DNA of 64,000 nucleotides from the NCBI RefSeq assembly GCF_000025545.1, contig NC_013889.1, forward strand, positions 489,501 to 553,500, read 5' to 3'. This stretch comes from Thioalkalivibrio sp. K90mix. Lineage in GTDB: Bacteria > Pseudomonadota > Gammaproteobacteria > Ectothiorhodospirales > Ectothiorhodospiraceae. Both the position numbers and the translations under genes were made by a program. Below, in pieces: positions 1-10,774 of the stretch (position 1 is its first letter; each line of letters opens with the position of its first letter). Below the pieces are notes generated by a model. The model worked only from the letters and a program-made list of their open reading frames with translations, did no database searches and was not told the origin of the DNA.

Positions 1-177
1 GGGTAGTCGCAGGAGTTCCACTATCCCGGGCTGTACCCCGATCCGGTCGGCAGTGCCGTCCTGCGAGCCGTCGTCGACCACGATCACCCGGTCGACATGA
101 GGTTGCGTGGCCGCGACGACGGCGGCGATCGTGGGGGCCTCGTTATGGGCCGGTATCAGCGCGTGGACGACCGCCAT
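1..177 (-). CDS. Glycosyltransferase family 2, N-terminal fragment
   Basis: The gene is cut by the left window edge; only the first 59 codons are visible, starting with ATG at 177. The peptide opens MAVVHALIPAHNEAPTIAAV and continues with RVIVVDDGSQDGTAD, the P-A-H-N-E and V-D-D-G-S signatures of GT-A fold family 2 glycosyltransferases. The start lies 9 nt after the ketoreductase stop, so it is probably the next gene of the pigment operon. Aryl-polyene loci usually encode a glycosyltransferase thought to help attach the polyene to a lipid or sugar carrier. The acceptor cannot be judged from this fragment. Confidence 0.85.
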   Translation of the reverse strand, partial: MAVVHALIPAHNEAPTIAAVVAATQPHVDRVIVVDDGSQDGTADRIGVQPGIVELLRLP

Positions 178-186
178 CGGTTCGGG

Positions 187-909
187 TCAGGCCAGTGCGC
201 CATTGATGCCGATCACCTGGCCGGAGACATAGCCGGCCTGCTCGGAGGCCAGATACGCCACCAGCCCGGCGACCTCTTCGGGGCGTCCGGCGCGCTGCGC
301 GGGCACCATGCGCCTGATCGTCTCGGCATCGAAGCTCGACTCGCTCATCGCGGTCTCGATGATTCCCGGCGCGACCGCGTTGGCCGTGATGCCGCGCGAC
401 CCGACCTCCTGGGCCAGCGAGCGGATGGCCCCGTGCAGTCCGGACTTGGCCGCGGCGTAGTTGGCCTGGCCGCGGTTGCCGACCACGCCGGCCACCGAGG
501 AGATCGCAATCACGCGCCCCCAGCGGGTTGTAATCATGGGCAACAGCAGCGGCTGGGCGACGTTGTAGAACCCGTTGAGCGCGACATCGATCGGCCGGGC
601 CCATTGTTCCGGGCTCATGCCGGCCAGCGGCGCGTCATCGTGCACGCCTGCGTTGTGCACCAGGATCTGCACCGGCTGCGCAGCCGCAACGGGCTCCAGC
701 TGTGCCCGCGCGGCAGCGGCGTCGGTGATGTCGAAGACCAGGACATCCGCCTGCCCCCCCTCGGAGTGGATCTGTTCGGCCAGGTCCCAGGCGGGGCCCG
801 GGTTGCGGTGTGCATGCAGCAGGACCTCGCAGCCGCTATCGGCCAGCGCCCGCGCGATGGCCTGGCCGATGGCGCCGCTGGCGCCGGTGATCAGTGCGCG
901 ATGGCTCAT
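187..909 (-). CDS. 3-oxoacyl-ACP reductase (SDR), aryl-polyene type ketoreductase
   Basis: A 240-residue classical short-chain dehydrogenase. The NADPH-binding loop TGASGAIG is at residues 8-15, the NAG motif near 86-88, the catalytic serine at about 137-138 and YxxxK at Y151/K155. In a type II system it would reduce the beta-keto group formed at each polyene extension step. Its ATG overlaps the upstream dehydratase stop by four bases (906-909), indicating translational coupling. It corresponds to the FabG-like ketoreductase (ApeQ-type) of aryl-polyene clusters. A housekeeping fatty-acid FabG is less likely because of the cluster context. Confidence 0.88.
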   Translation of the reverse strand: MSHRALITGASGAIGQAIARALADSGCEVLLHAHRNPGPAWDLAEQIHSEGGQADVLVFDITDAAAARAQLEPVAAAQPVQILVHNAGVHDDAPLAGMSPEQWARPIDVALNGFYNVAQPLLLPMITTRWGRVIAISSVAGVVGNRGQANYAAAKSGLHGAIRSLAQEVGSRGITANAVAPGIIETAMSESSFDAETIRRMVPAQRAGRPEEVAGLVAYLASEQAGYVSGQVIGINGALA

Positions 910-1361
910 GTCGGATCATCCTCGGTTTGCAGGATCACGGTCGCGCGCGCGGACAGGACGGGCTCACCCTCGGCCGATACCTCGAGATCATAGATGGAGC
1001 TGTTGCGATCTGACATCACGCTGCGGGCCGTGATGTCGAGGTCCGCGTTCAGGTCGTCCAGCTCCGTCCGGTGCACGCGCAGGTTGCGGACCGCGGCCAG
1101 GAAACCGGCCCTGGGTGGTCCGGCGTCGGCCAGCAGGGCGCCATGCACGGCCATCGCCTGGGCGCCGTACTCCAGCGCCGACAGGGCCGGGAGCCCGGTG
1201 GTGTTGCGCAAGGGGTTATCAGGGGCGCGGTGGCTGATGGCGCGGCAACGGATCGCCTGTTCGTCCCATTCGACCACCGCCTCCAGCAGGCACATTGCGC
1301 CTGCATGCGGCAGCAGGCGGCAGATCGCCTCGTGGTTCAGTTGGGGGCTGGCGGCCTTCAT
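906..1361 (-). CDS. 3-hydroxyacyl-ACP dehydratase, ApeP-like hotdog protein
   Basis: A 151-residue hotdog-fold protein. The N-terminal LPHAGAMCLLEAV stretch (residues 17-29) matches the LPH-x-G-x-M-x-L-L signature of the FabZ-like dehydratases in aryl-polyene and xanthomonadin loci. The ALEYGAQAMAVHGAL helix is also typical. It would dehydrate the beta-hydroxyacyl-ACP to the trans-enoyl form, leaving the double bond in place so that conjugation builds up. It is 51 nt downstream of the chain-length factor gene and overlaps the ketoreductase start. This operon encodes a second, FabA/FabZ-like dehydratase at 7295-7621. Confidence 0.82.
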   Translation of the reverse strand: MKAASPQLNHEAICRLLPHAGAMCLLEAVVEWDEQAIRCRAISHRAPDNPLRNTTGLPALSALEYGAQAMAVHGALLADAGPPRAGFLAAVRNLRVHRTELDDLNADLDITARSVMSDRNSSIYDLEVSAEGEPVLSARATVILQTEDDPT

Positions 1362-1412
1362 GTGTGGGATCGTCCTGATCCGTCGCAGAGAGTGAGGCGA
1401 ACCGCGGAAAGA

Positions 1413-2189
1413 TCAGGGCGTGACGCGGATCTCCAGCGATCGCCCCAGCGGCGCGGCAAGCGTAACATGACCGCCTTCGCCGCGCGCGAGGACCTCCAGC
1501 AGGGGCAGGGCACGGGCTGCGGGGTTGGTGCCGCGCAGGGCCTCCAGCGAATCCTGGCGGCAGGGGGTTGGATCGCCTCCTTCGCCCAAGGCCAGTTCGA
1601 GGGTGGGCCGCCCGGCAACGGCGGGGCCCAGGCGCAGGCCGACGGCGAACGGCTCGGTGATGGGCCGTACACGCCGGAACGTGGCCATGGAAGCGACGTC
1701 GTAAGCAGCCAGCAGGACTTCGCCACCGTCAGCCTGCAGTAGCGTGGCGGCCTCCAGCAGTCCTGCCGCCAGCGTCGCATCGAAACCGGAGATGGCCGTT
1801 GCCGGGGCTGGATTTCCCGTCGCGATCGACCAGTTGCCGGCCGGTGCGTTGTGTACCGAATTGTGGAACTGCACCGGCGAGACCATGGGCTCCGCCTGTG
1901 TCAGCGCCTCGCAGATGCGGTCGATGATGTCCATGTCCCCGGAGGACGAGGCGAACACCGAGCGCAGCTGGCTGCGGTCGCAGTCGGCTGTGGCCTCCTC
2001 TGCGGCCTTCAGCGCCAGGCGAATCGTGTCCGTCGTGCGGCGGCGCTCGTTGGCCGGCAGCAGGGTGGTCGGCGGGATGGTCACCGGCGCCCGCTCATAG
2101 GGCTCCTGTCCGGCGAGGACGGGGCGCGCCGAGGCGAAATCGGCCAGGCCCGGGCCCAGCAGGCCAACGCCCGCAATACCAACCTTCAT
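1413..2189 (-). CDS. Beta-ketoacyl synthase chain-length-factor homologue
   Basis: A 258-residue protein of the short ketoacyl-synthase-like family (Ketoacyl-synt_2 type). It keeps thiolase-fold landmarks such as FASSSGDMD and VQFHNSVHNAPAGNWSIATG. Where a ketosynthase nucleophile would stand it reads ATAISGFDAT with no cysteine, and it lacks the C-terminal histidines. This is the usual state of a chain-length factor, which pairs with an active ketosynthase to set polyene length. Its start overlaps the KS stop by four bases (2186-2189), supporting a KS-CLF heterodimer as in ApeO/ApeC. Confidence 0.82.
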   Translation of the reverse strand: MKVGIAGVGLLGPGLADFASARPVLAGQEPYERAPVTIPPTTLLPANERRRTTDTIRLALKAAEEATADCDRSQLRSVFASSSGDMDIIDRICEALTQAEPMVSPVQFHNSVHNAPAGNWSIATGNPAPATAISGFDATLAAGLLEAATLLQADGGEVLLAAYDVASMATFRRVRPITEPFAVGLRLGPAVAGRPTLELALGEGGDPTPCRQDSLEALRGTNPAARALPLLEVLARGEGGHVTLAAPLGRSLEIRVTP

Positions 2190-3370
2190 GCGGCCTCCAG
2201 CAGCAGGCTGCAGTTGTTGCCGCCGAAGCCGAAGGCATTTACGAGTACATGGCGGATCTCGCGTTCCTCGGCGACCCCTCGGGCGTCCAGTTCAAGCTCG
2301 GGGTCCGGATGGTCCAGTCCTGCCGTGGCGGGTACGAAGCCCCGCTCCAGGCTGGCCAGTGCCTGCGCGACCCCGACGGCCCCGGCCGCCCCGAGGGTGT
2401 GGCCGGTCAGGCCCTTGGTGCCGGTGGCGCGGCTGTCTGCACCAAACAGGCGCGCCAGGGCGCGTGCCTCGGAGCGGTCGTTGGCCGGGGTCGCGGTGGC
2501 ATGCATGAGCACATAGTCGATGGCCCCGGCGGACCGCTGTGCCCGCGTGAGGGCCTGCTCCATGGCGCTCGCGGCGCCGAGTCCCTCCGGATGCGGGGCC
2601 GACATGTGGTGGGCATCGCTGGATTCGCCGTGGCCGATCAGCCGGGGACCGGCCGCACCGCTGTCGGGCCTCTCCAGCAGGAAGAAACCGGCGGCCTCGC
2701 CGATGGAGATGCCGGCGCGCTCGGCATGCAGCGGGCGGCAGGGTTCCGGTGCCACGAGTTGCAGCGCATTGAAGCCGTGCAGGGTCATCCCGCAGAGGCT
2801 GTCCACACCGCCGACCACCGCCGCATCGCAGAGCCCCGCCGCAATAAAGCGTTCGGCATCGGCAAAGACCTTGGCGCTGGACGAGCACGCCGTGGAGACC
2901 ACCATCGCCGGGCCCCGCAGGCCGAGCCGGGTACTGACGAAATCGGCCAGCGAGAACATGTTCTGGGTGTGCTGGTAGTCGTAGTCCGGTGGCAGGTCCC
3001 CGGTAGCCGGTTCGCGGCGGCGGTAGGCCTGCTCCGTTGCGGCGATCCCCGAGGTGCTGGTGCCCATCAGGACTGCGATACGTCCGGCACCGTAACGTTC
3101 GCGCGCGGTCTCGACGGCCTCGATGAAGCCATCCTGGCGCAGCCCCAGCTCGGCCAACTGGTGGTTGCGGCACTGGAACGTGGCCAGGTGATCCGTCAGC
3201 ACGATCTCCTCCACACCCGTCACACGCCCGATGTGGGTGTCCAGCTGCACGGAGTCCAGGTCGCAGGCGCGCAGCCCGCTATGCGCTTTGTGCAGGGCGT
3301 CGGCATTGGCCTGGCGGCCGGTTCCGGTGGCGGAGGTCAGGGTGTGGGCGGAGATGACCAGTGGATTCAT
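2186..3370 (-). CDS. Beta-ketoacyl-ACP synthase (KAS II-like) of the pigment operon
   Basis: A 394-residue ketosynthase. The nucleophile is C162 in VSTACSSSAK, and the catalytic histidines are H290 in MHATATPAND and H324 in GLTGHTLGAAG. The glycine-rich GFGGNN loop sits near residue 381. The usual H-G-T-G-T motif reads HATAT here. It would condense malonyl-ACP with the growing aryl polyene. It sits 39 nt after the MMPL gene and is coupled to the chain-length factor. No aromatic ammonia-lyase or hydroxybenzoate synthase is visible in the window, so the starter unit is unknown. Confidence 0.9.
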   Translation of the reverse strand: MNPLVISAHTLTSATGTGRQANADALHKAHSGLRACDLDSVQLDTHIGRVTGVEEIVLTDHLATFQCRNHQLAELGLRQDGFIEAVETARERYGAGRIAVLMGTSTSGIAATEQAYRRREPATGDLPPDYDYQHTQNMFSLADFVSTRLGLRGPAMVVSTACSSSAKVFADAERFIAAGLCDAAVVGGVDSLCGMTLHGFNALQLVAPEPCRPLHAERAGISIGEAAGFFLLERPDSGAAGPRLIGHGESSDAHHMSAPHPEGLGAASAMEQALTRAQRSAGAIDYVLMHATATPANDRSEARALARLFGADSRATGTKGLTGHTLGAAGAVGVAQALASLERGFVPATAGLDHPDPELELDARGVAEEREIRHVLVNAFGFGGNNCSLLLEAA

Positions 3371-3409
3371 TCGGCGGGCTGCGGTTGGCGGGACTTGTAG
3401 CGGCTGGGC

Positions 3410-5797
3410 TCAGTGATTTGCGGGTACTGTACGTCGCGACTGGGGGGGCTGCGCCAGAAGCGCGGCTGCGAGAAAGGAAAATACCACGCCCAGCACTACC
3501 GTGAGCCCCATGGCCCGCAGCACCGGCAGACTGGAAAGGGCCAGCAGGCCAAACACGGCCACGGTGGACAACGCGCAGATGCTGACCGAAGTGGCCGTGT
3601 CCTGCCGCGCCTGCAGGTCTCTCAGCGGACGACTGAAAAACACCGCGTAGTCCAGACACAGTCCGACGATCAGCAGCAGCGCAATCAGATGGAAAAGCGA
3701 CAGGGAAACCCCGAGCAGGATCAGCGCAGCCACGGTCAGGACCAGCCCGCTCCCTACCGCGGTCAGGATGCGCAGGCTGCGCCCGGGCGCGCGCGTGACC
3801 AGCAGCAGTAACAGGGCGACGGCCACCACGCCGAGGGCCAGCCGCTCCAGCGCCTGATCGCGGAATCCGCTGACCAGGTCCTCCGAGGCGCGCAGAAAAT
3901 CCACGTGCTGCACGCCCACATCGGCCAGGCCGGGCAGGTCTGCCAGCGGTTCCCGCTGCAGCCATTGTCTCACCGCGGTTGCATCCTCCACGCCGCTGAG
4001 CCGCACCCAGGCCAGCCAGTCGCCGCGGTCCACGTCCGGCATCAGCAGAGTCCCTGTCGTCTGGCGCAGCGGTCCTTCCGGAAGCGTCTCCGGTGTGAGC
4101 GGCTCCAGGTCGCGGGTCCGGGCCACATCCTCCAGAAAGGGCTCGAAGGCATCCGCGCGGAAACCCAGCCCGTCGACCGCGGTGTCCAGTCGCGCGCGCA
4201 GGGTGTCCGCGGCGGGCAGGGCCTCCTGGCGTATGCGCTGCAAGGTCTGGCTCGGCAGGACCTGGGCCGCATGGTCGTAGTCCGTCAGCGTCCCCTGGTC
4301 GCGCAGATCTTCAAGGCCCGGGTTCAGCGCTTCGATGGCCTGTAGCGCCCGCTCGGGGTCCGGAGCGGTAATCAGCAGGGCATGGCGGATATCTGGCAGT
4401 CCCAGGGCGTGGCGCAGTTCGCGGTCGCGGTCGATGTGCTCCTGCGGGACCGGGTGCAGGGCGCCCAGGTTGCCCTCCCAGGGGAACGGGTCGGTGCTGG
4501 CGATAACCACCAGCGCCCCCAGCACGGAGGCGGCCAGGATCCAGCGCGCCGCCACCGGAGGCTGCGTCAGAGCGGCCGGTACCGGGAGGCGGGCCGGTGG
4601 TACCCCGTCACGCTGCAACGCCTGTGGCATCAGGCGAGGCAGTACCCAGCGCGTGGTGATCGCGGCCACGCCAACTCCGGTCAGCACGAACAGCCCGAGC
4701 TGGGCCATGCCGGAAAACCCCGTGATCGCCATTAGCGCGTAGACCAGTACCGTGCTCCCGGCGCCCAGGCCAATCGCCGGCCACAGCTCGCGTGCCACGC
4801 CGCGCATCCCGTCACGCGGGGGCGGCCGGCTGTGCGCGAACAGGTGCAATGGGTAGTCGAGCGCGATGCCCAGCACGGTAATGCCGAACGCCAGTGCGAT
4901 CCCGTGCAGGTGACCGAATACCATTGTCACCACCGCGGCGCCGGACAGAATGCCGGTCGCCAGTGGAACGGCCGCGAGCCAGACGGGGTGGGGGTGGCGG
5001 AACACGACCAGCAGGAGTGTGGCCAGGGCCAGGCTGGCGGCCAGGCTGAAGGCGGTGATCTCGCCCCGGATGCGCCCGCGCGCTTCGACCGCAATCACGG
5101 CGGGCCCCGCGACGAGCAGACCCAGGTCGTCCGCGTACTCGGCGAAGGCCTCGTCCAGCGCCTTCAGGAGCGCTTCCTGACCGTCCAGATCCATGCCTTC
5201 AGCCGCGCTGTGCAAGACCAGCAGGGCCCGCTCGCGCTCGGGGTCGACCCAGACGCCATGGCGGTCGCGTTCGCCCCCGCCACCAGCCTGTCCCAACTGT
5301 TCGAGCACCACCAGTGATTCGCCCGTGGGGTCGCGGCCGATCAGTTCCCGGGGCATCAGCGGGGCGGCACTACCGAGGTCCTCCCGACGTTCCTCGAGCT
5401 GGTCGCGCAGGGTGTCGACAGAGAAGCGCTCCGGGGTAACCTCGGGGCTCAGGAGATAGCGGTGCTCAAGCAGGAAATCCAGGGCGGGGTCATCCGGGTC
5501 GAGACGCCCGTTACGGATCTCCGCGACCGCGGGGTGGTCGCGCAGCGCCTGGACCAGATGGTCGCTGGCATCCGCGCGTGCCTGGCTGTTCCCGCCCTCG
5601 AGGCCCAGCAGCAGGATCTGTCCGGCCGGGCCGCCCCCGGGGTCCAGCGCCACCCCGGTCTCGGTGACCGGCTCCGGGGTGAAGCCCTGAAGGTCAGTGA
5701 CCAGTTCGCCCCGCCACAGCAGGATGCTGGCTGCCACCAGCAGCCCGATCAGCCAGAGCGCCGGTCCCGGTGACAGGGGGAAGCGATTCGGCACCAA
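3410..5797 (-). CDS. MMPL/RND-family exporter of the aryl-polyene operon
   Basis: A 795-residue inner-membrane protein with RND/MMPL architecture: one N-terminal transmembrane segment (about 13-30), a large periplasmic loop, a block of about five helices, a second periplasmic loop and a final helix block ending near the C terminus. The start is TTG at 5797 or GTG at 5794, directly behind the LolA-like stop with no gap. Aryl-polyene loci carry such an MMPL protein next to a LolA-like carrier. The pair is thought to move the finished lipid-linked pigment towards the outer membrane. Substrate is inferred only from context. Confidence 0.85.
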   Translation of the reverse strand: MVPNRFPLSPGPALWLIGLLVAASILLWRGELVTDLQGFTPEPVTETGVALDPGGGPAGQILLLGLEGGNSQARADASDHLVQALRDHPAVAEIRNGRLDPDDPALDFLLEHRYLLSPEVTPERFSVDTLRDQLEERREDLGSAAPLMPRELIGRDPTGESLVVLEQLGQAGGGGERDRHGVWVDPERERALLVLHSAAEGMDLDGQEALLKALDEAFAEYADDLGLLVAGPAVIAVEARGRIRGEITAFSLAASLALATLLLVVFRHPHPVWLAAVPLATGILSGAAVVTMVFGHLHGIALAFGITVLGIALDYPLHLFAHSRPPPRDGMRGVARELWPAIGLGAGSTVLVYALMAITGFSGMAQLGLFVLTGVGVAAITTRWVLPRLMPQALQRDGVPPARLPVPAALTQPPVAARWILAASVLGALVVIASTDPFPWEGNLGALHPVPQEHIDRDRELRHALGLPDIRHALLITAPDPERALQAIEALNPGLEDLRDQGTLTDYDHAAQVLPSQTLQRIRQEALPAADTLRARLDTAVDGLGFRADAFEPFLEDVARTRDLEPLTPETLPEGPLRQTTGTLLMPDVDRGDWLAWVRLSGVEDATAVRQWLQREPLADLPGLADVGVQHVDFLRASEDLVSGFRDQALERLALGVVAVALLLLLVTRAPGRSLRILTAVGSGLVLTVAALILLGVSLSLFHLIALLLIVGLCLDYAVFFSRPLRDLQARQDTATSVSICALSTVAVFGLLALSSLPVLRAMGLTVVLGVVFSFLAAALLAQPPQSRRTVPANH

Positions 5798-6415
5798 TCA
5801 GTCGCCGTCTTGCGGATCGAGCTGCATGCGGCTGTGGCGACCTCCGGACTCCTCGGTATCCAGCCGCAGGAGGGCACCGCCCTCGCCCTGGAGCTCAAGT
5901 CCGAGGATCATGCGACGAAGGGCGCGGTCACGCGGGGCGAGTTCCAGCTTCCAGGCCTCCAGGTCGCCTTCGGTGTCGACTTCGAAGTGTTCTTCCAGTC
6001 CCTCGCGTTCCCCCTTGGCAAGGGAGCGGAACAAGGCGGCAAACGCGGCCAGGCCCGGCTGCTCGTCCAGGTCCACCTCGCGGCTGGAGCCTCGGCGTTC
6101 CACGATCACCTGGCGTCCCTCGATACGCACGCGTTCGCCGCCGTCGCCATCCATACGGCGCTCCAGGATGTCTGGCGGCTCGAACACCAGCGTGCCGGTC
6201 CGAGTCTCGGGGAATTCGAGCAGGGGGTCCTGGCGGGTTTCGCGAAAGTCGATACGTGATGGCGGATTGTCGGCCAGTGCTTCCAGGATCTGGTCCAGTG
6301 TGTCGCCGGAGGTCTCCGCCTTGGCAAATAGCGGGCAGGCCAGCAGGAGTACCGCCAGGGCCAGCGCCCGGACCCCGAGCAGTTGCCGGCAGCAAGGCTT
6401 AGCGGGACGAGTCAT
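5798..6415 (-). CDS. LolA-like outer-membrane lipoprotein carrier protein
   Basis: A 205-residue exported protein. ATG at 6415 was chosen because it is followed by a basic stretch and the hydrophobic signal LLGVRALALAVLLLACPLF ending AKA. The mature part is a beta-rich LolA-like domain (FRETRQDPLLEFPETRTGTL, then WKLELAPRDRALRRMI). It overlaps the acyltransferase stop by 17 nt and abuts the MMPL start. This protein family is a constant member of aryl-polyene clusters and probably shuttles the pigment conjugate across the periplasm. An upstream ATG at 6427 is an alternative start. Confidence 0.8.
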   Translation of the reverse strand: MTRPAKPCCRQLLGVRALALAVLLLACPLFAKAETSGDTLDQILEALADNPPSRIDFRETRQDPLLEFPETRTGTLVFEPPDILERRMDGDGGERVRIEGRQVIVERRGSSREVDLDEQPGLAAFAALFRSLAKGEREGLEEHFEVDTEGDLEAWKLELAPRDRALRRMILGLELQGEGGALLRLDTEESGGRHSRMQLDPQDGD

Positions 6416-7298
6416 TCCAGAAATCATAGAAGTTGAACCAGTTGTACGGGGCCTCGCGCACGCGCGTCTCGAGGCGATCGGCGTAGCGTTGCACCCATTC
6501 GGCCAGGGCCTCTTCGCGTCGGCCGCGGGGGGCCTCGATGACGTCGGCAAAGCGCTCAAAGACGATATCGTAGCGATTGCCGCCGCGATAGAGGCCGAAG
6601 CACAGAATGACCGGGACCTTGAGCACTGCGGCCAGCAGCAACGGGCCCTGGGGAAAAAAGGCCCGGCCCCCGAGGAAACGGCATTCCACCATCTTGTCAC
6701 TTTCGGCCACGCGATCGGCCAGGGTGGCCACAATCCCCCCCTGTTCCAGACAGTCGCGCGCGTGCAGCAGGGTCTCGGTGTCGCCCAGGGGAATGACCGA
6801 CGCGGCGACCTCGGGGTTGAGCGCCTCCAGCAACTGGGTGATGCGCTGGTTGTGATTGCGGTACATCAGCACGCGAACGGGAAAGTCGTTTTTTCCGACC
6901 GCGAGTACCCGCAGGGCCTCGAAGCTGCCCAGGTGTGCCCCGAGCAGCAGGGCCCCGTGGCCGCTTTCGACGTGCTCAAGGAAGATCTCGCGATTGTGAA
7001 CATGAAGATCCAGGCACGCGTCTTTGCCGGACAGCAGGAAGACGCGGTCCAGGATCACGGCTGCGAAGCTGTGGAAGTGCCGGGCAATCTCGCGCAGGCG
7101 CGGCTCGCGTCCGAGCACGCGGCGCAGGTAGTCCCGGCTGTAACCCCGGGATTTCGGGGCAAACAGAAGAAAGTAGGCGGTTATCGGGTAGAGCAGTGTG
7201 CGACCGGCCGGCCGCCCGAGATGCAAGGCAACCCACAGGATGATGCGCAGCGCCAGGGGGGACCCTCGCTCCCCCTGGCTGAACCACCCCCGGCTCAC
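6399..7298 (-). CDS. LpxL-type lysophospholipid/lipid A acyltransferase family protein
   Basis: A 299-residue acyltransferase of the LpxL/LpxM (HtrB/MsbB) superfamily. The HX4D/E catalytic motif appears as GAHLGSFEALR, and the C-terminal region YNWFNFYDFWND is characteristic. A GTG start overlaps the dehydratase stop (GTGA at 7295-7298). In this operon it is the obvious candidate to transfer the aryl-polyene acyl chain from ACP to a glycolipid acceptor at the inner membrane. The glycosyltransferase is encoded by a separate gene at the operon's far end. Confidence 0.83.
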   Translation of the reverse strand: MSRGWFSQGERGSPLALRIILWVALHLGRPAGRTLLYPITAYFLLFAPKSRGYSRDYLRRVLGREPRLREIARHFHSFAAVILDRVFLLSGKDACLDLHVHNREIFLEHVESGHGALLLGAHLGSFEALRVLAVGKNDFPVRVLMYRNHNQRITQLLEALNPEVAASVIPLGDTETLLHARDCLEQGGIVATLADRVAESDKMVECRFLGGRAFFPQGPLLLAAVLKVPVILCFGLYRGGNRYDIVFERFADVIEAPRGRREEALAEWVQRYADRLETRVREAPYNWFNFYDFWNDSSR

Positions 7299-7621
7299 GC
7301 CGTTTGTCCGGCGTCGTGCAGCTTCAGTTGTCCGCTACACAGGGGTTCGGATGTCTCCGCACCGTCGCGGATAACGCGGAATGCGCGCAGGCCGCTGGTA
7401 CCAGGGGGATCAATCTCCACCCGGAAATCGACCTCCGGAAGCAACGGCGCCAGAAATTTCGCCCGTGGCAGGGCGGCCACCGGCCCCAGGCCGCTTGCGC
7501 GCGCGACGGCGTCCACCGTGTCCAGGATGACCACGCCCGGTACGACCGGCTGACCGGGGAAATGCCCGGGCAGTGAGGGGTGGTTGGCCGGGATGCGGCG
7601 TGTGGCAATGATTGGTGCCAT
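7295..7621 (-). CDS. FabA/FabZ-like hotdog dehydratase, ApeI-like
   Basis: A 108-residue single hotdog domain. The segment NHPSLPGHFPGQPVVPGV (residues 14-31) carries the HFPG..VVPGV active-site histidine region of FabA/FabZ dehydratases. It is small for FabZ but matches the ApeI class of aryl-polyene loci, which works with the ApeP-like dehydratase on polyene intermediates. The start lies 3 nt after the ligase stop and the end overlaps the acyltransferase, so it is tightly coupled in the operon. Confidence 0.8.
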   Translation of the reverse strand: MAPIIATRRIPANHPSLPGHFPGQPVVPGVVILDTVDAVARASGLGPVAALPRAKFLAPLLPEVDFRVEIDPPGTSGLRAFRVIRDGAETSEPLCSGQLKLHDAGQTA

Positions 7622-7624
7622 TGC

Positions 7625-8965
7625 TCAGGCGCACTGCCCGTGCTGGTCCAGCAAGTCCAGCAGGACCTGGCGCGGGAGTTTGCCCGTCGCGCTGCGGGGG
7701 AGGGCTTCCACCATCACCAGGGGACGCGGAAGGAACAGCGGGTCCGTGGTTTCGGCCAGGGCCGCCAGAATCTCGGCCTCGGAGCGCTCCGGGGCGACCA
7801 CGATCGCAGCCAAACGCGCGGTCCCGCTGTCCTGTCCGGAATCGGGCGGGATGAACACGCCGTCCTCTACGCCGGGAATGGCGTTCAGGCGCCGGTTCAG
7901 CTCGGCCAGTGAGGCTCGTTTGCCGGCGATATTGAGCTGATCCGCCAGGCGTCCGCGCATGCGGAAGCGCTGGGCATCTTCCCACTCGATGCGGTCGGGC
8001 AGGGGGACTGGTGCCGGGTGCTGGGGTCCCTGTACCGCCACCCGGTCGCTGCCCTGGGCCGTCAGCGCAATCCCGTCATAGACCGTCCACAGAGGCTCCC
8101 GGGCCGTCTCGCGGCTGGCAATGGCCCCGGCCTCGGTGCAGCCGTAGATCTCGCGGACGGTCGCGCCAAACAGTGTTTCCGCGGCCTGTGCCCGGTCTTG
8201 TTCCAGTGGGGCAGTGGCGCTGAGGATGCGCGCCGCCCTGGGCCAGATCAGGCCCGCCCGCAGGCAGGCGTCCAGGTGAAATGGGGTAGTGACCAGGTTC
8301 GCCGGGGCATGCTCGGCCATGGCCTGGCGGATATCGTCCGGGAAGAACGGGCGTTCGGCCAGCAGTGTGCAGGGGCCGAGCAGGGCATACAGCACCGTGG
8401 ATTCCAGGCCGTACATGTGCTGCGCGGGGACCGTCCCCACCAGTGTTCCTCCGTCGGTATCCAGCCCGAAGCGGCGCAGGGCCTGTGCGGTCACGACATG
8501 AAGGCTGTTCCAGCTCCTGCTGTGAGCGGTGGGCTGTCCGGTGCTGCCCGAGGTATAGGCGTGTACCGCCATCTGATCCGACGGGATCTCCGGGGTCGCG
8601 CCCGCATTGTGGGCGTGCTCTGTCCCGTCCACGGTGACCGGGATGACGGGGAGGGTGATACTGAGGTCCCGCTCGTCCACCAGGGCGTGCGCGCCCGGAT
8701 GACGTTCGGCGATCTCGCTCAGGGTGGTGCGGGCACGGTTCGGGGGAAGGATGCTGGCACCGCCGCGTAGCAGGATCGCGGCAAACGCGACCGCAAAGCG
8801 ATAGCGATCCTCGCAAAGGTTGAAGTGGGCTCCGCCGGCCGGGATTCGTCGGGCGAGGGTGCGGACATCCGCCAGAAATGCAGCCCGCGAGACACGGCGG
8901 CCCGCCACCCAGGCCAGTGGCGTTGGGTGGTCGGCAATCAACGCTAGTGTGTTCGAGTCCCTCAT
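7625..8965 (-). CDS. AMP-dependent acyl/aryl-ACP ligase (adenylation enzyme), ApeH-like
   Basis: A 446-residue ANL-superfamily enzyme. The phosphate loop reads YTSGSTGQPTAHS, followed by a YGCTEAGAIASRE core and a C-terminal half ending in PRSATGKLPRQVL with the catalytic lysine. The protein is shorter than typical acyl-CoA ligases (about 500-550 residues), as for the aryl-polyene adenylation enzymes that load an aromatic acid onto ACP. ATGA overlap with the preceding membrane-protein gene. The aromatic starter is not determinable here; 4-hydroxybenzoate or a cinnamate-type acid are possibilities. Confidence 0.85.
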   Translation of the reverse strand: MRDSNTLALIADHPTPLAWVAGRRVSRAAFLADVRTLARRIPAGGAHFNLCEDRYRFAVAFAAILLRGGASILPPNRARTTLSEIAERHPGAHALVDERDLSITLPVIPVTVDGTEHAHNAGATPEIPSDQMAVHAYTSGSTGQPTAHSRSWNSLHVVTAQALRRFGLDTDGGTLVGTVPAQHMYGLESTVLYALLGPCTLLAERPFFPDDIRQAMAEHAPANLVTTPFHLDACLRAGLIWPRAARILSATAPLEQDRAQAAETLFGATVREIYGCTEAGAIASRETAREPLWTVYDGIALTAQGSDRVAVQGPQHPAPVPLPDRIEWEDAQRFRMRGRLADQLNIAGKRASLAELNRRLNAIPGVEDGVFIPPDSGQDSGTARLAAIVVAPERSEAEILAALAETTDPLFLPRPLVMVEALPRSATGKLPRQVLLDLLDQHGQCA

Positions 8966-9576
8966 CGTTGTCTCAGGATTTGGCGGTGGTCGGCGCGCGC
9001 CAGTGCGGCGAGGTAGGGCAGGAAACCCGCCCGGGGTTCATCGCGCAGGAGCCAGCGCCGTAATGGATATTCCAGCATGAACAGCGCCGCCAGGAACAGA
9101 TAGTTGATCCCATTTGCGAACAAGGCCCAGGTGGTGGTGGGCACCGCCACCGCCAGTATCGCCGACAGCAGGGCGAGTCCACCGCACAGCAGGGCCCAGA
9201 CGGCGGTCAGCCGCCGCGTATAGCGATGCACCGGCGTGCTGTCGGAGGCGCCCATGGCCAGCGCATACCGGGTGATCAGGGGGGTGGAGCCCGGACGCAG
9301 GGAGCGGGCAAACAGCCATGCCAGGGCCCCCTGAATAAGCACCGGTACTGCGTAGATCAGCCATTTCCCGGCCGGCTCGGCACCCAGAAGCAACACTAGC
9401 ACGGCCAGCACCAGGGCCATCACCGCTCGGCCGAGCACGGGCAGGACCGGCCAGGCGAGGACCAGGATGAGCAGCGCCAGCCAGGCCAGCGGCAGTCGCG
9501 GCAGCTCCAGGAAAATGCCCGCGATCACGGCCACCGGGTAGCCCAGGGCTACCGCGGCGGCGAGACGGGTACTCAC
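8962..9576 (-). CDS. COG4648-type integral membrane protein of aryl-polyene loci
   Basis: A 204-residue hydrophobic protein with about six predicted transmembrane segments (for example residues 7-25, 28-45, 50-65, 72-90, 125-148, 150-168). The C terminus is basic and cytoplasmic. It resembles the conserved membrane protein between the ACP and adenylation genes of aryl-polyene clusters. Its biochemical role is not established; membrane anchoring of the pigment machinery is a guess. GTG start overlaps the ACP stop (GTGA). Confidence 0.7.
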   Translation of the reverse strand: MSTRLAAAVALGYPVAVIAGIFLELPRLPLAWLALLILVLAWPVLPVLGRAVMALVLAVLVLLLGAEPAGKWLIYAVPVLIQGALAWLFARSLRPGSTPLITRYALAMGASDSTPVHRYTRRLTAVWALLCGGLALLSAILAVAVPTTTWALFANGINYLFLAALFMLEYPLRRWLLRDEPRAGFLPYLAALARADHRQILRQR

Positions 9577-9845
9577 GACGTGGCTCGGTGCGCCTCGATA
9601 TGGGCGGTCAGGGCCCGCAAGGATGCGAAGATCTGGCGATTGTTCTCGTCATCGGAGCGGATCTGCACGCCATAGGCCCGCGAGATGGCCAGTGCCAGTT
9701 CCAGCGCATCGATCGAGTCCAGCCCAAGGCCCTCGCGGAACAAGGGGGCCTCCGGCTCGATGTCCTCGGGGCTGACCTCTTCGAGATTCAGGCTGTCGAC
9801 GATCAGCCTGGCGACTTCCTGTTCCATTGCGGTTTGTGCTGCCAC
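9573..9845 (-). CDS. Acyl carrier protein, first gene of the pigment operon
   Basis: A 90-residue acyl carrier protein. The phosphopantetheine site is S44 in GLGLDSIDALEL, followed by an acidic recognition helix. GTG at 9845 is chosen because GGGGAG precedes it by about five bases; ATG at 9827 is an alternative. It would carry starter and growing polyene. Aryl-polyene systems normally use two ACPs; only one lies in the visible part, so a second may be past the left edge. The gene heads the operon behind a regulatory region rich in dyads. Confidence 0.88.
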   Translation of the reverse strand: MAAQTAMEQEVARLIVDSLNLEEVSPEDIEPEAPLFREGLGLDSIDALELALAISRAYGVQIRSDDENNRQIFASLRALTAHIEAHRATS

Positions 9846-9876
9846 GTCTCTCCCCTAAATAGCGACGGAATCCGAA

Positions 9877-9897
9877 AGCGTTTCCCGGGGAAACGCT
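9877..9897. promoter_or_regulatory. Perfect 21-bp dyad in the pigment-operon leader
   Basis: Arms AGCGTTTCCC and GGGAAACGCT are exact reverse complements around a single central G. The dyad lies 32 bp upstream of the ACP start. It could be a repressor or activator operator, or an mRNA hairpin near the ribosome-binding site. No adjacent regulator gene is present. Confidence 0.5.
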
Positions 9898-9910
9898 GAT
9901 TGTTCCCCTG

Positions 9911-9940
9911 GGGAGGTGCTGGGCGCGCCGTGCACCTCCC
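9911..9940. promoter_or_regulatory. Second stem-loop/dyad upstream of the pigment operon
   Basis: GGGAGGTGC and GCACCTCCC form perfect 9-bp arms with a 12-base spacer in the intergenic region between the divergent ACP and DUF218 genes (9846-10099). Neither gene ends here, so it is not a terminator for a visible gene. It is more likely regulatory. I see no convincing -35/-10 pair in this stretch. Confidence 0.35.
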
Positions 9941-10099
9941 GGCCCGGGGCCGATGATACGCAACCCCAGGGGGGCGTGGTACCCTCCAAATGCAGGGAAT
10001 ACGCGGTTTTGCGGGCGGGGCGGCAGAGTGGGTGCTCTCACGGGGGGCAGCCAGTCGACCGCCAGCGAATCGCCAGGGGGCAAGTATGGGGGGCGAGTC

Positions 10100-10774
10100 G
10101 TGATCGGCGGTCGGGTAGGACTGCGGCGCGTCGGGCCGGACGGGCTGCTGACCTTCGGGCTGTCCAATCTGGTCATTGTGCTGACGGCGGGACTTAGCTG
10201 GCTCGCGTTGTGGGGGCGTATGCATCTGTGGGTCCGGAGCCTGGACTGTCCGGGCCGAGCACCCTGGGTCATTGTCCTGGGGCAGCAGTTACAAGAGGGT
10301 TGCCCTGGACCGGGTTACCGGCTGCGCCTGTTGCGAACCCTGCGCCTGCTGCGGCGCGACCCGGAGGCCCGCGTTCTGCTGCTGGGCGGATACACATCGC
10401 CCGAAGGCCCCAGCGAGTCGGCCGCGGGTGCGGCCTTTCTGCGTCAGCGCGGCATCCCGGCCTCTCGCATCTTTTGTGAAGAGGACTCGCGGCACACCCT
10501 GGAGAATCTGCAAAACGCCCGCGACCTGCTCGTCCAGCGTACCGGCGGCCGCCTGCCGCGCTGTGTGCTCGTGACCAGTCGCTTTCACCTGCCCCGTGCG
10601 GTGGCCATCGCGCGCGGGGTGGGTCTCGAGGTCTGTCCCTGCCCTGCCGAGCGCTCGCCCCGGGTGCCACAGGTGCGTCTGGCGCGGGAAATCTGGATGC
10701 TGCACTGGTATCACACCGGACGACTGTTTGCCCGGTTAATCCGTCATCAGGGGATGCTCGACCGGATCAGCTAG
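10100..10774 (+). CDS. DUF218 (YdcF/SanA/ElyC-like) family protein
   Basis: A 224-residue protein with GTG start at 10100 behind a G-rich SD about six bases upstream. One N-terminal membrane helix (about residues 17-40) precedes a DUF218 domain: WVIVLGQQL, VLLLGGYTS, ESAAGAAFLRQRGI, EEDSRHTLENLQNA and CVLVTSRFHLPRA. The conserved T-x-E-N and S-x-x-H pattern is typical of this family, whose envelope members affect peptidoglycan or exopolysaccharide; the reaction is unknown. The gene is divergent from the pigment operon and convergent with valS. Confidence 0.75.
   Translation: MIGGRVGLRRVGPDGLLTFGLSNLVIVLTAGLSWLALWGRMHLWVRSLDCPGRAPWVIVLGQQLQEGCPGPGYRLRLLRTLRLLRRDPEARVLLLGGYTSPEGPSESAAGAAFLRQRGIPASRIFCEEDSRHTLENLQNARDLLVQRTGGRLPRCVLVTSRFHLPRAVAIARGVGLEVCPCPAERSPRVPQVRLAREIWMLHWYHTGRLFARLIRHQGMLDRIS

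Follow-up and report, generated by a model that had tools for sequence, protein, structure and literature searches.

The window analyzed here is a stretch of 64,000 nucleotides from the soda-lake sulfur bacterium Thioalkalivibrio sp. K90mix (NC_013889.1, positions 489,501 to 553,500 of the forward strand), and its first 9845 positions are occupied by an operon of twelve minus-strand genes. The initial annotation had called this operon an aryl-polyene recipe and a good candidate for the pathway of a natronochrome-like yellow pigment. All of the content that it had named was present, namely an acyl carrier protein (ACP), a ligase, a ketosynthase (KS), a chain-length factor (CLF), a 3-ketoacyl-ACP reductase (KR), two dehydratases, a LolA/MMPL pair, an acyltransferase and a glycosyltransferase (Table 1). 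Eleven genes are complete, and the glycosyltransferase gene is cut by the window edge. The ATGA or GTGA overlaps said to join most of the genes do exist, but a 4-base overlap was found at just 5 of the 11 junctions; the others are 0 to 51 bases apart, save that the LolA gene, with the start given in Table 1, overlaps its neighbor by 17 bases. The order from ACP to KR was identical in 13 of the 14 relatives whose loci were fetched, and the cluster is thus not a chance arrangement. In the fourteenth (L046, genome G001) the contig ends inside the second dehydratase gene. The full order from ACP to glycosyltransferase and lipoprotein gene was found in 12 of the 14, and at one locus (L045, genome G021) the genes from ACP to KR were present with no glycosyltransferase found beside them. 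Judged from the DNA, this pigment-type gene cluster is intact and real.

Table 1. Genes of the operon, its neighbors and the remote gene pair in K90mix. Coordinates without a prefix are positions in the window.
Feature	Position	Strand	Remarks
Lipoprotein, small, 131 aa	G000:C1:488432-488827, left of the window, after the glycosyltransferase		Homologue within or next to clusters of other Proteobacteria
Glycosyltransferase, family 2, 246 aa	1..177 (first 177 coding bases; rest to G000:C1:488937, left of the window)	-	Glycos_transf_2, 79.5 bits
KR, ApeQ-like by context	187..909	-	Best NCBIfam model is the FabG equivalog, above cut-off
Hot-dog dehydratase, ApeP-like	906..1361	-	PF22817, 25.7 bits; best solved chain 6qsr_B, E 0.0007
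CLF, short, ApeC-like, N-terminal KS half only	1413..2189	-	Ketoacyl-synt_2
KS, ApeO-like	2186..3370	-	Cys162, His290 and His324 invariant (12 aligned sequences)
MMPL/RND-type exporter, ApeM-like	3410..5797	-	Pfam and NCBIfam matches
LolA-like periplasmic carrier, ApeL-like	5798..6415	-	LolA_3; ATG start at 6415
Acyltransferase, lipid-A-type	6399..7298	-	Domain match
FabA/FabZ-like dehydratase, ApeI-like	7295..7621	-	Domain matches
AMP-forming ligase, ApeH-like	7625..8965	-	Domain matches
Small membrane protein, ApeG-like by position only	8962..9576	-	Position kept in relatives and outside loci; no match in Pfam or NCBIfam
ACP	9573..9845	-	DSIDAL phosphopantetheine site
Divergent spacer	9846..9952		Position of the halogenase gene in eight relatives
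DUF218 gene, conserved ACP neighbor, divergent	9953..10774	+	valS comes next
Second chorismatase, XanB2-type	G000:C1:1115063-1116064 (L121:9564-10565)		616 kb from the operon, same chromosome
Methyltransferase	G000:C1:1116092-1116883 (L121:10593-11384)		Starts 27 bases after the chorismatase

Among solved chains in the PDB, the KS was most similar to 7f28_B (219 bits) and 6qsp_A (216 bits), with the next chain at 170.5 bits, and 6qsp_B and 7f28_A were the sole chains that matched the CLF with E < 0.01. The chain 6qsr_B, listed in Table 1 for the hot-dog dehydratase, we take to be ApeP. The best match for the ACP was 9ls6_A (72.6 bits), which is named there only as acyl carrier protein. 6QSP is ApeO-ApeC of Xenorhabdus doucetiae (PMC8358021), and 7F28 occurs once in the same paper, which concerns ApeO-ApeC and ApeR of Acinetobacter. 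In a tree of 40 KS rows (all trees were midpoint-rooted), 15 KS from Thioalkalivibrio and 21 from other bacteria grouped together, separate from four FabF-like proteins of the genus. The tree and the best solved chains thus put the KS and CLF on the side of aryl-polyene systems and not of fatty-acid synthases; the initial annotation had named a placement among fatty-acid or unrelated polyketide systems as refuting its proposal, and the proposal passed this test. A search of the K90mix genome with the KS gave one other match at E <= 0.001, which was FabF-like, and a plasmid search gave 1158 records, all below 60% identity and at 39-54% among the ten matches listed.

The gene content agreed with these best relatives, and the description as an aryl-polyene recipe holds. 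The operon combines a KS and short CLF of the ApeO-ApeC kind with its own ACP, an AMP-ligase, a KR and two dehydratases, and it further encodes a LolA-like carrier, an MMPL/RND exporter, an acyltransferase and a glycosyltransferase. No second KS (ApeR), second ACP (ApeF) or thioesterase (ApeK) was recognized in the operon or its flanks, and for this reason the operon was not placed in the E. coli-type subgroup. Its gene content marks it as an aryl-polyene operon that is xanthomonadin-like and not E. coli-type.

The same measure makes arcuflavin of Azoarcus sp. BH72 and the xanthomonadin-like cluster of Lysobacter enzymogenes the nearest known systems. The arcuflavin genes (PMC3949708, accessible passages), like those of K90mix, encode one ACP, a KS with a short CLF-like protein, two dehydratases, a KR, a ligase, LolA, an exporter, an acyltransferase, a glycosyltransferase, a XanB2-type chorismatase and a methyltransferase, and they too are split over two unlinked loci. 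The systems differ in that the arcuflavin split divides the core enzymes themselves and that the product is joined to a dialkylresorcinol; the arcuflavin genes also include a halogenase, as in eight Thioalkalivibrio relatives and unlike K90mix. In Azoarcus, a 3-hydroxybenzoate starter is backed by feeding (PMC3949708). The Lysobacter cluster, in the part of its description available (PMC3691225), shares with K90mix the KS with a short CLF-like partner, the ACP, two dehydratases, the KR, a XanB2 homologue and the lack of a halogenase. A halogenase is found in xanthomonadin-like systems and not in K90mix, but the trait is not strictly defining because Lysobacter also has none. Loss of the XanB2 homologue in L. 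enzymogenes lowered the pigment by about 90%, and 3-hydroxybenzoate rescued it (PMC3691225); the gene lies within the cluster there and 616 kb away in K90mix. The aryl-polyene cluster of E. coli CFT073 (PMC8253772, accessible passages) has counterparts in K90mix for ApeC, E, G (by position), H, I, L, M, O, P and Q and for the anchoring enzymes. It also has ApeF, ApeR, ApeK and an in-cluster methyltransferase, ApeB, none of which turned up in the operon of K90mix. Its 4-hydroxybenzoate is presumed to come from UbiC, which the K90mix genome does not encode.

The accessible part of the K90mix genome paper reports that the strain contains a membrane-bound yellow pigment, natronochrome, at high concentrations, terms it highly unsaturated, and in 2011 still gave its gene or genes as "to be identified" (PMC3368412). 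The genome has 2,985,056 bases, divided between a 2.74-Mb chromosome and a 240-kb plasmid, and a title in the reference list of the same paper dates the description of natronochrome to 2004 (PMC3368412). The pigmentation of individual Thioalkalivibrio species was not found in the literature passages searched. No paper tying aryl-polyene genes to Thioalkalivibrio was found in a literature search that left subscription journals mostly outside its reach; PMC9768965 mentions both aryl polyenes and the genus and draws no link in its accessible passages.

Of 30 Thioalkalivibrio genomes, 15 had a KS orthologue (73-100% identity), and a KS search at E 1e-60 in 47 genomes of the order returned only the same 15. 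These cluster-positive genomes include T. versutus AL2 (G029), T. thiocyanoxidans ARh2 (G028) and T. halophilus HL17 (G001). Nine of the 15 cluster-negative genomes are at least 90% complete.

The initial annotation had suggested that the source of the aromatic starter and a second ACP might lie beyond the left edge. The genes to the left of the glycosyltransferase gene are the lipoprotein gene and then zapG-like, DUF2459 and dacB-like genes, and neither a starter enzyme nor a second ACP was found among them; genes of other kinds thus occupy this flank, and starter genes there were rejected. A second ACP is not expected in this subtype because Xanthomonas clusters have none (PMC8253772, accessible passages). 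UbiC as the starter source was also rejected, since it was found in 0 of 15 cluster-positive genomes and in 2 of the 30 overall, with a model that does find E. coli among 14 control genomes. A tyrosine ammonia lyase starter is a trait of flexirubins. K90mix had no match to the ammonia lyase family PF00221; its sole match in the 30 genomes was a fragment of 50 positions in G010 (5 of 14 controls matched), and this source was rejected as well.

Chorismatases of the FkbO/Hyg5/XanB2 family were found in 25 of the 30 genomes. Two copies were present in 12 of the 15 cluster-positive genomes, and in none of the 15 cluster-negative genomes or the 14 controls. In K90mix the second, XanB2-type copy lies next to a methyltransferase gene (Table 1), and an orthologue of this methyltransferase (75-100% identity) was found in 14 of the 15 cluster-positive genomes and none of the 15 cluster-negative ones, the top matches in the latter being 31-35% identical and mostly UbiE-like. 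Fisher tests for co-occurrence with the cluster gave p = 2e-7 for the methyltransferase and 1e-5 for the second chorismatase, with the genomes treated as independent, which they are not. Relatives of the pair were also found at some of 21 loci of other bacteria that were located through the KS and examined in up to 10 kb of DNA on each side. The methyltransferase had homologues at 7 of these loci, the chorismatase at 9, the halogenase of the relatives at 8, the lipoprotein at 9 and the DUF218 protein at 3, and homologues of the glycosyltransferase likewise lay within clusters of other Proteobacteria or next to them. In the methyltransferase tree, 7 proteins from these loci and 14 from Thioalkalivibrio formed one group apart from 8 UbiE proteins (100/100). 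Transposase-like genes, recognized by eye, were seen about 3-6 kb from the pair in K90mix (L121:3371-4363) and in T. versutus (L123:3874-6382).

At two conserved sites in an alignment of 34 chorismatase rows, the second copies (12 of 12) and the in-cluster enzymes (9 of 9) carried Asn and Gly, as do Hyg5 and FkbO, and the first copies (13 of 13 aligned, these being the only first copies in the alignment) carried His and Ser. A Hyg5-type assignment, which would imply 3-hydroxybenzoate only, was abandoned: the Gly and Cys serving as the Hyg5 mark were present in all 34 rows, and the Gly common to Hyg5 and FkbO (ATGIG) was Ala in 33 of 34, and thus these residues do not separate the chorismatase subtypes. 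Of the xanthomonadin-like traits, the XanB2-type chorismatase is present as a remote second copy outside the operon, and a candidate for the ring-hydroxyl methyltransferase is the remote enzyme that groups with the in-cluster ones. The starter enzyme is thus likely encoded 616 kb away and not beyond the left edge, and the two remote genes probably help to make the pigment. Since the pair co-occurs with the cluster and, in other Proteobacteria, has relatives within or next to aryl-polyene clusters, the pigment is predicted to be xanthomonadin-like, hydroxybenzoate-primed and methylated.

One genome, G014, showed an empty site. Its ValS was 95% identical to that of K90mix, within the 94-97% found for G014 and the cluster-positive genomes; the remaining negatives with a match were at most 81% identical, and no ValS orthologue was found in G026 and G027. 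Less than 260 bases separate valS from the lipoprotein gene in G014 (L173:5084-5340), with no DUF218 gene and no operon between them, and the pyrC region on another contig is without the chorismatase-methyltransferase pair. Thus, a genome whose ValS places it within the cluster-bearing group has neither the operon nor the two remote genes, which makes this loss informative. G014 would be a natural pigment-negative control if it is unpigmented. Each of the 14 relatives fetched has the DUF218 gene close to the ACP gene. This conservation, the occurrence of DUF218 homologues at 3 of the 21 outside loci and the absence of the gene along with the operon in G014 hint at a role in the pathway, and the gene is possibly part of the cluster.

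The spacer between the ACP and DUF218 genes differs among the strains. Eight of the 14 cluster-positive relatives, including T. versutus AL2, have at this place a gene for a flavin halogenase of 452 aa with a WxWxIP motif, divergent from the ACP gene. T. thiocyanoxidans ARh2 is, like K90mix, halogenase-negative. K90mix had no match to the Pfam halogenase model, at most 29.4 bits to the 452-aa protein, and no orthologue. The Pfam model was a poor guide, with 19 of 30 genomes and 5 of 14 controls (including E. coli) above cut-off; matches above 25 bits occurred only in the eight genomes (51-62 bits) and in G003 (44 bits). The best solved relatives of the halogenase in the PDB were 3e1t, 8zop, PltA (5dbj), ChlB4 (7fco) and CmlS (3i3l), several of which presumably act on carrier-bound substrates. 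G003, putatively T. paradoxus ARh1, has a UbiC gene and a different cluster at about 8824-18643 of L171 (G003:C1:888000-907999), with a halogenase 34-36% identical to the one on the T. versutus side. By eye this cluster includes an adenylation enzyme, an acyl-CoA dehydrogenase-like gene, a second flavoprotein, a ligase and a carrier protein, and its product may be a halogenated aryl or pyrrole compound.

The initial annotation had ascribed the natronochrome pigments to T. versutus. A cited title names strain ALJ15, then called T. versutus, as the source of chloronatronochrome (reference list of PMC3368412), but ALJ15 has since been moved to T. nitratis (PMC5345834, accessible passages). The reassignment matters to all comparisons of pigments with genomes. 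At the locus, the DNA of K90mix, ALJ21 and G012 is 92-94% identical and all three are without the halogenase; this group probably includes T. nitratis or the nearest kin of that species. The halogenase was thus dropped as the proven source of chloronatronochrome, as ALJ15 probably belongs to a halogenase-free group.

We consider it very probable that natronochrome, the yellow pigment in the K90mix membrane, is the product of the operon, made through a split pathway that includes the remote pair. The XanB2-type chorismatase would convert chorismate to 3-hydroxybenzoate, and perhaps also to 4-hydroxybenzoate, and the operon ligase would load the starter on the operon ACP. Extension with malonate units by KS-CLF, KR and the two dehydratases would give a fully conjugated aryl polyene, to be methylated by the enzyme encoded beside the chorismatase. 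The acyltransferase and glycosyltransferase would attach the polyene to an envelope lipid, and the MMPL-LolA pair would transport the product to the outer membrane. In relatives with a halogenase beside the ACP, the ring or chain is probably halogenated.

The candidacy of the operon for the natronochrome pathway is supported by the reported production of natronochrome in K90mix, the aryl-polyene character of the KS and CLF, and the lack of a rival locus in our searches. A different division of labor, in which the operon makes an aryl-polyene lipid and natronochrome is another molecule made elsewhere in the genome, is quite unlikely. In its favor, the accessible papers only name natronochrome, one adding "highly unsaturated", and give no structure; natronochrome itself is presumed here to be an aryl polyene. 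Against a separate origin, the operon is the best candidate locus because the KS search gave only the FabF-like second match and no crtI-family gene exceeded the cut-off in the 30 genomes (4 of 14 controls passed). Weak crtI matches occurred in all 30, those listed for K90mix being confined to the model's first 35-54 positions, and a carotenoid as the source of the yellow color was not supported. A pigment that is membrane-bound, yellow and highly unsaturated (PMC3368412) also fits an aryl polyene. The starter is a separate question. A 4-hydroxybenzoate start of the E. coli type, with the second chorismatase serving otherwise, would be compatible with the operon making natronochrome, and it gains from the cluster-positive genomes G001 and G010, which have the methyltransferase and only the common chorismatase, and from the fact that XanB2-type enzymes form both 3- and 4-hydroxybenzoate, with the product not predictable from sequence (PMC3949708, accessible passages). 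The restriction of the second copy to cluster-positive genomes and its Asn and Gly, as in the in-cluster chorismatases and in contrast to the His and Ser of the first copy, make this start unlikely. We give little credence to the idea that the pair serves quinone metabolism and co-occurs with the cluster by shared descent. The methyltransferase does belong to the UbiE family by Pfam, and the cluster-positive genomes and G014 form one ValS group, so that the distribution amounts to about one gain and one loss and the co-occurrence rests on few events. The compared genomes, however, have a UbiE-like second gene besides the methyltransferase, in other bacteria the relatives of the pair are found within aryl-polyene clusters or next to them, and G014 is without the pair and the operon together.

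Several observations weigh against the assignment of operon and pair to natronochrome, in addition to the few events and the genomes G001 and G010. The assignment is based on gene content, gene order, closest relatives, co-occurrence and the remote pair, from which the enzyme activities and the product are inferred. The best NCBIfam match of the KR is FabG, and the PF22817 match of the ApeP-like dehydratase is slightly below the Pfam cut-off of 27. The second chorismatase scores 247 bits against an NCBIfam cut-off of 325, and in the tree it joins the first copy of the genus (93/90) and not the in-cluster enzymes. In the methyltransferase tree, midpoint-rooted as it is, the program gave a long-branch warning where the outside rows and UbiE join. 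Both remote genes are absent from G021, a metagenome-assembled genome of 66% completeness and the sole cluster-positive genome without the methyltransferase, and 6 of the 15 cluster-negative genomes are below 90% complete. Finally, 8 of the 21 outside loci, several of the loci being incomplete, have no methyltransferase, chorismatase or halogenase; in one of the eight, L093, a 25% halogenase match was not counted.

New here are the remote gene pair, the optional halogenase and the G014 empty site. We tentatively suggest, as a possibility that falls somewhat short of an even chance, that natronochrome and chloronatronochrome are xanthomonadin-type aryl polyenes, that their pathway consists of unlinked pieces, the core operon and the remote pair, which are lost together, and that a lineage-specific halogenase of the carrier-protein type, encoded beside the ACP, makes the chlorinated form. 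If so, the halogenation of a strain's pigment could be read from one intergenic site. A candidate gene set now covers natronochrome, including two remote genes that are invisible from the main locus alone. It predicts that the strains of the 15 cluster-positive genomes out of 30 would be yellow, that G014 and G003 would not be, and that some strains may make a halogenated form. Thus, the biosynthesis of natronochrome becomes a testable question within a known kind of system.

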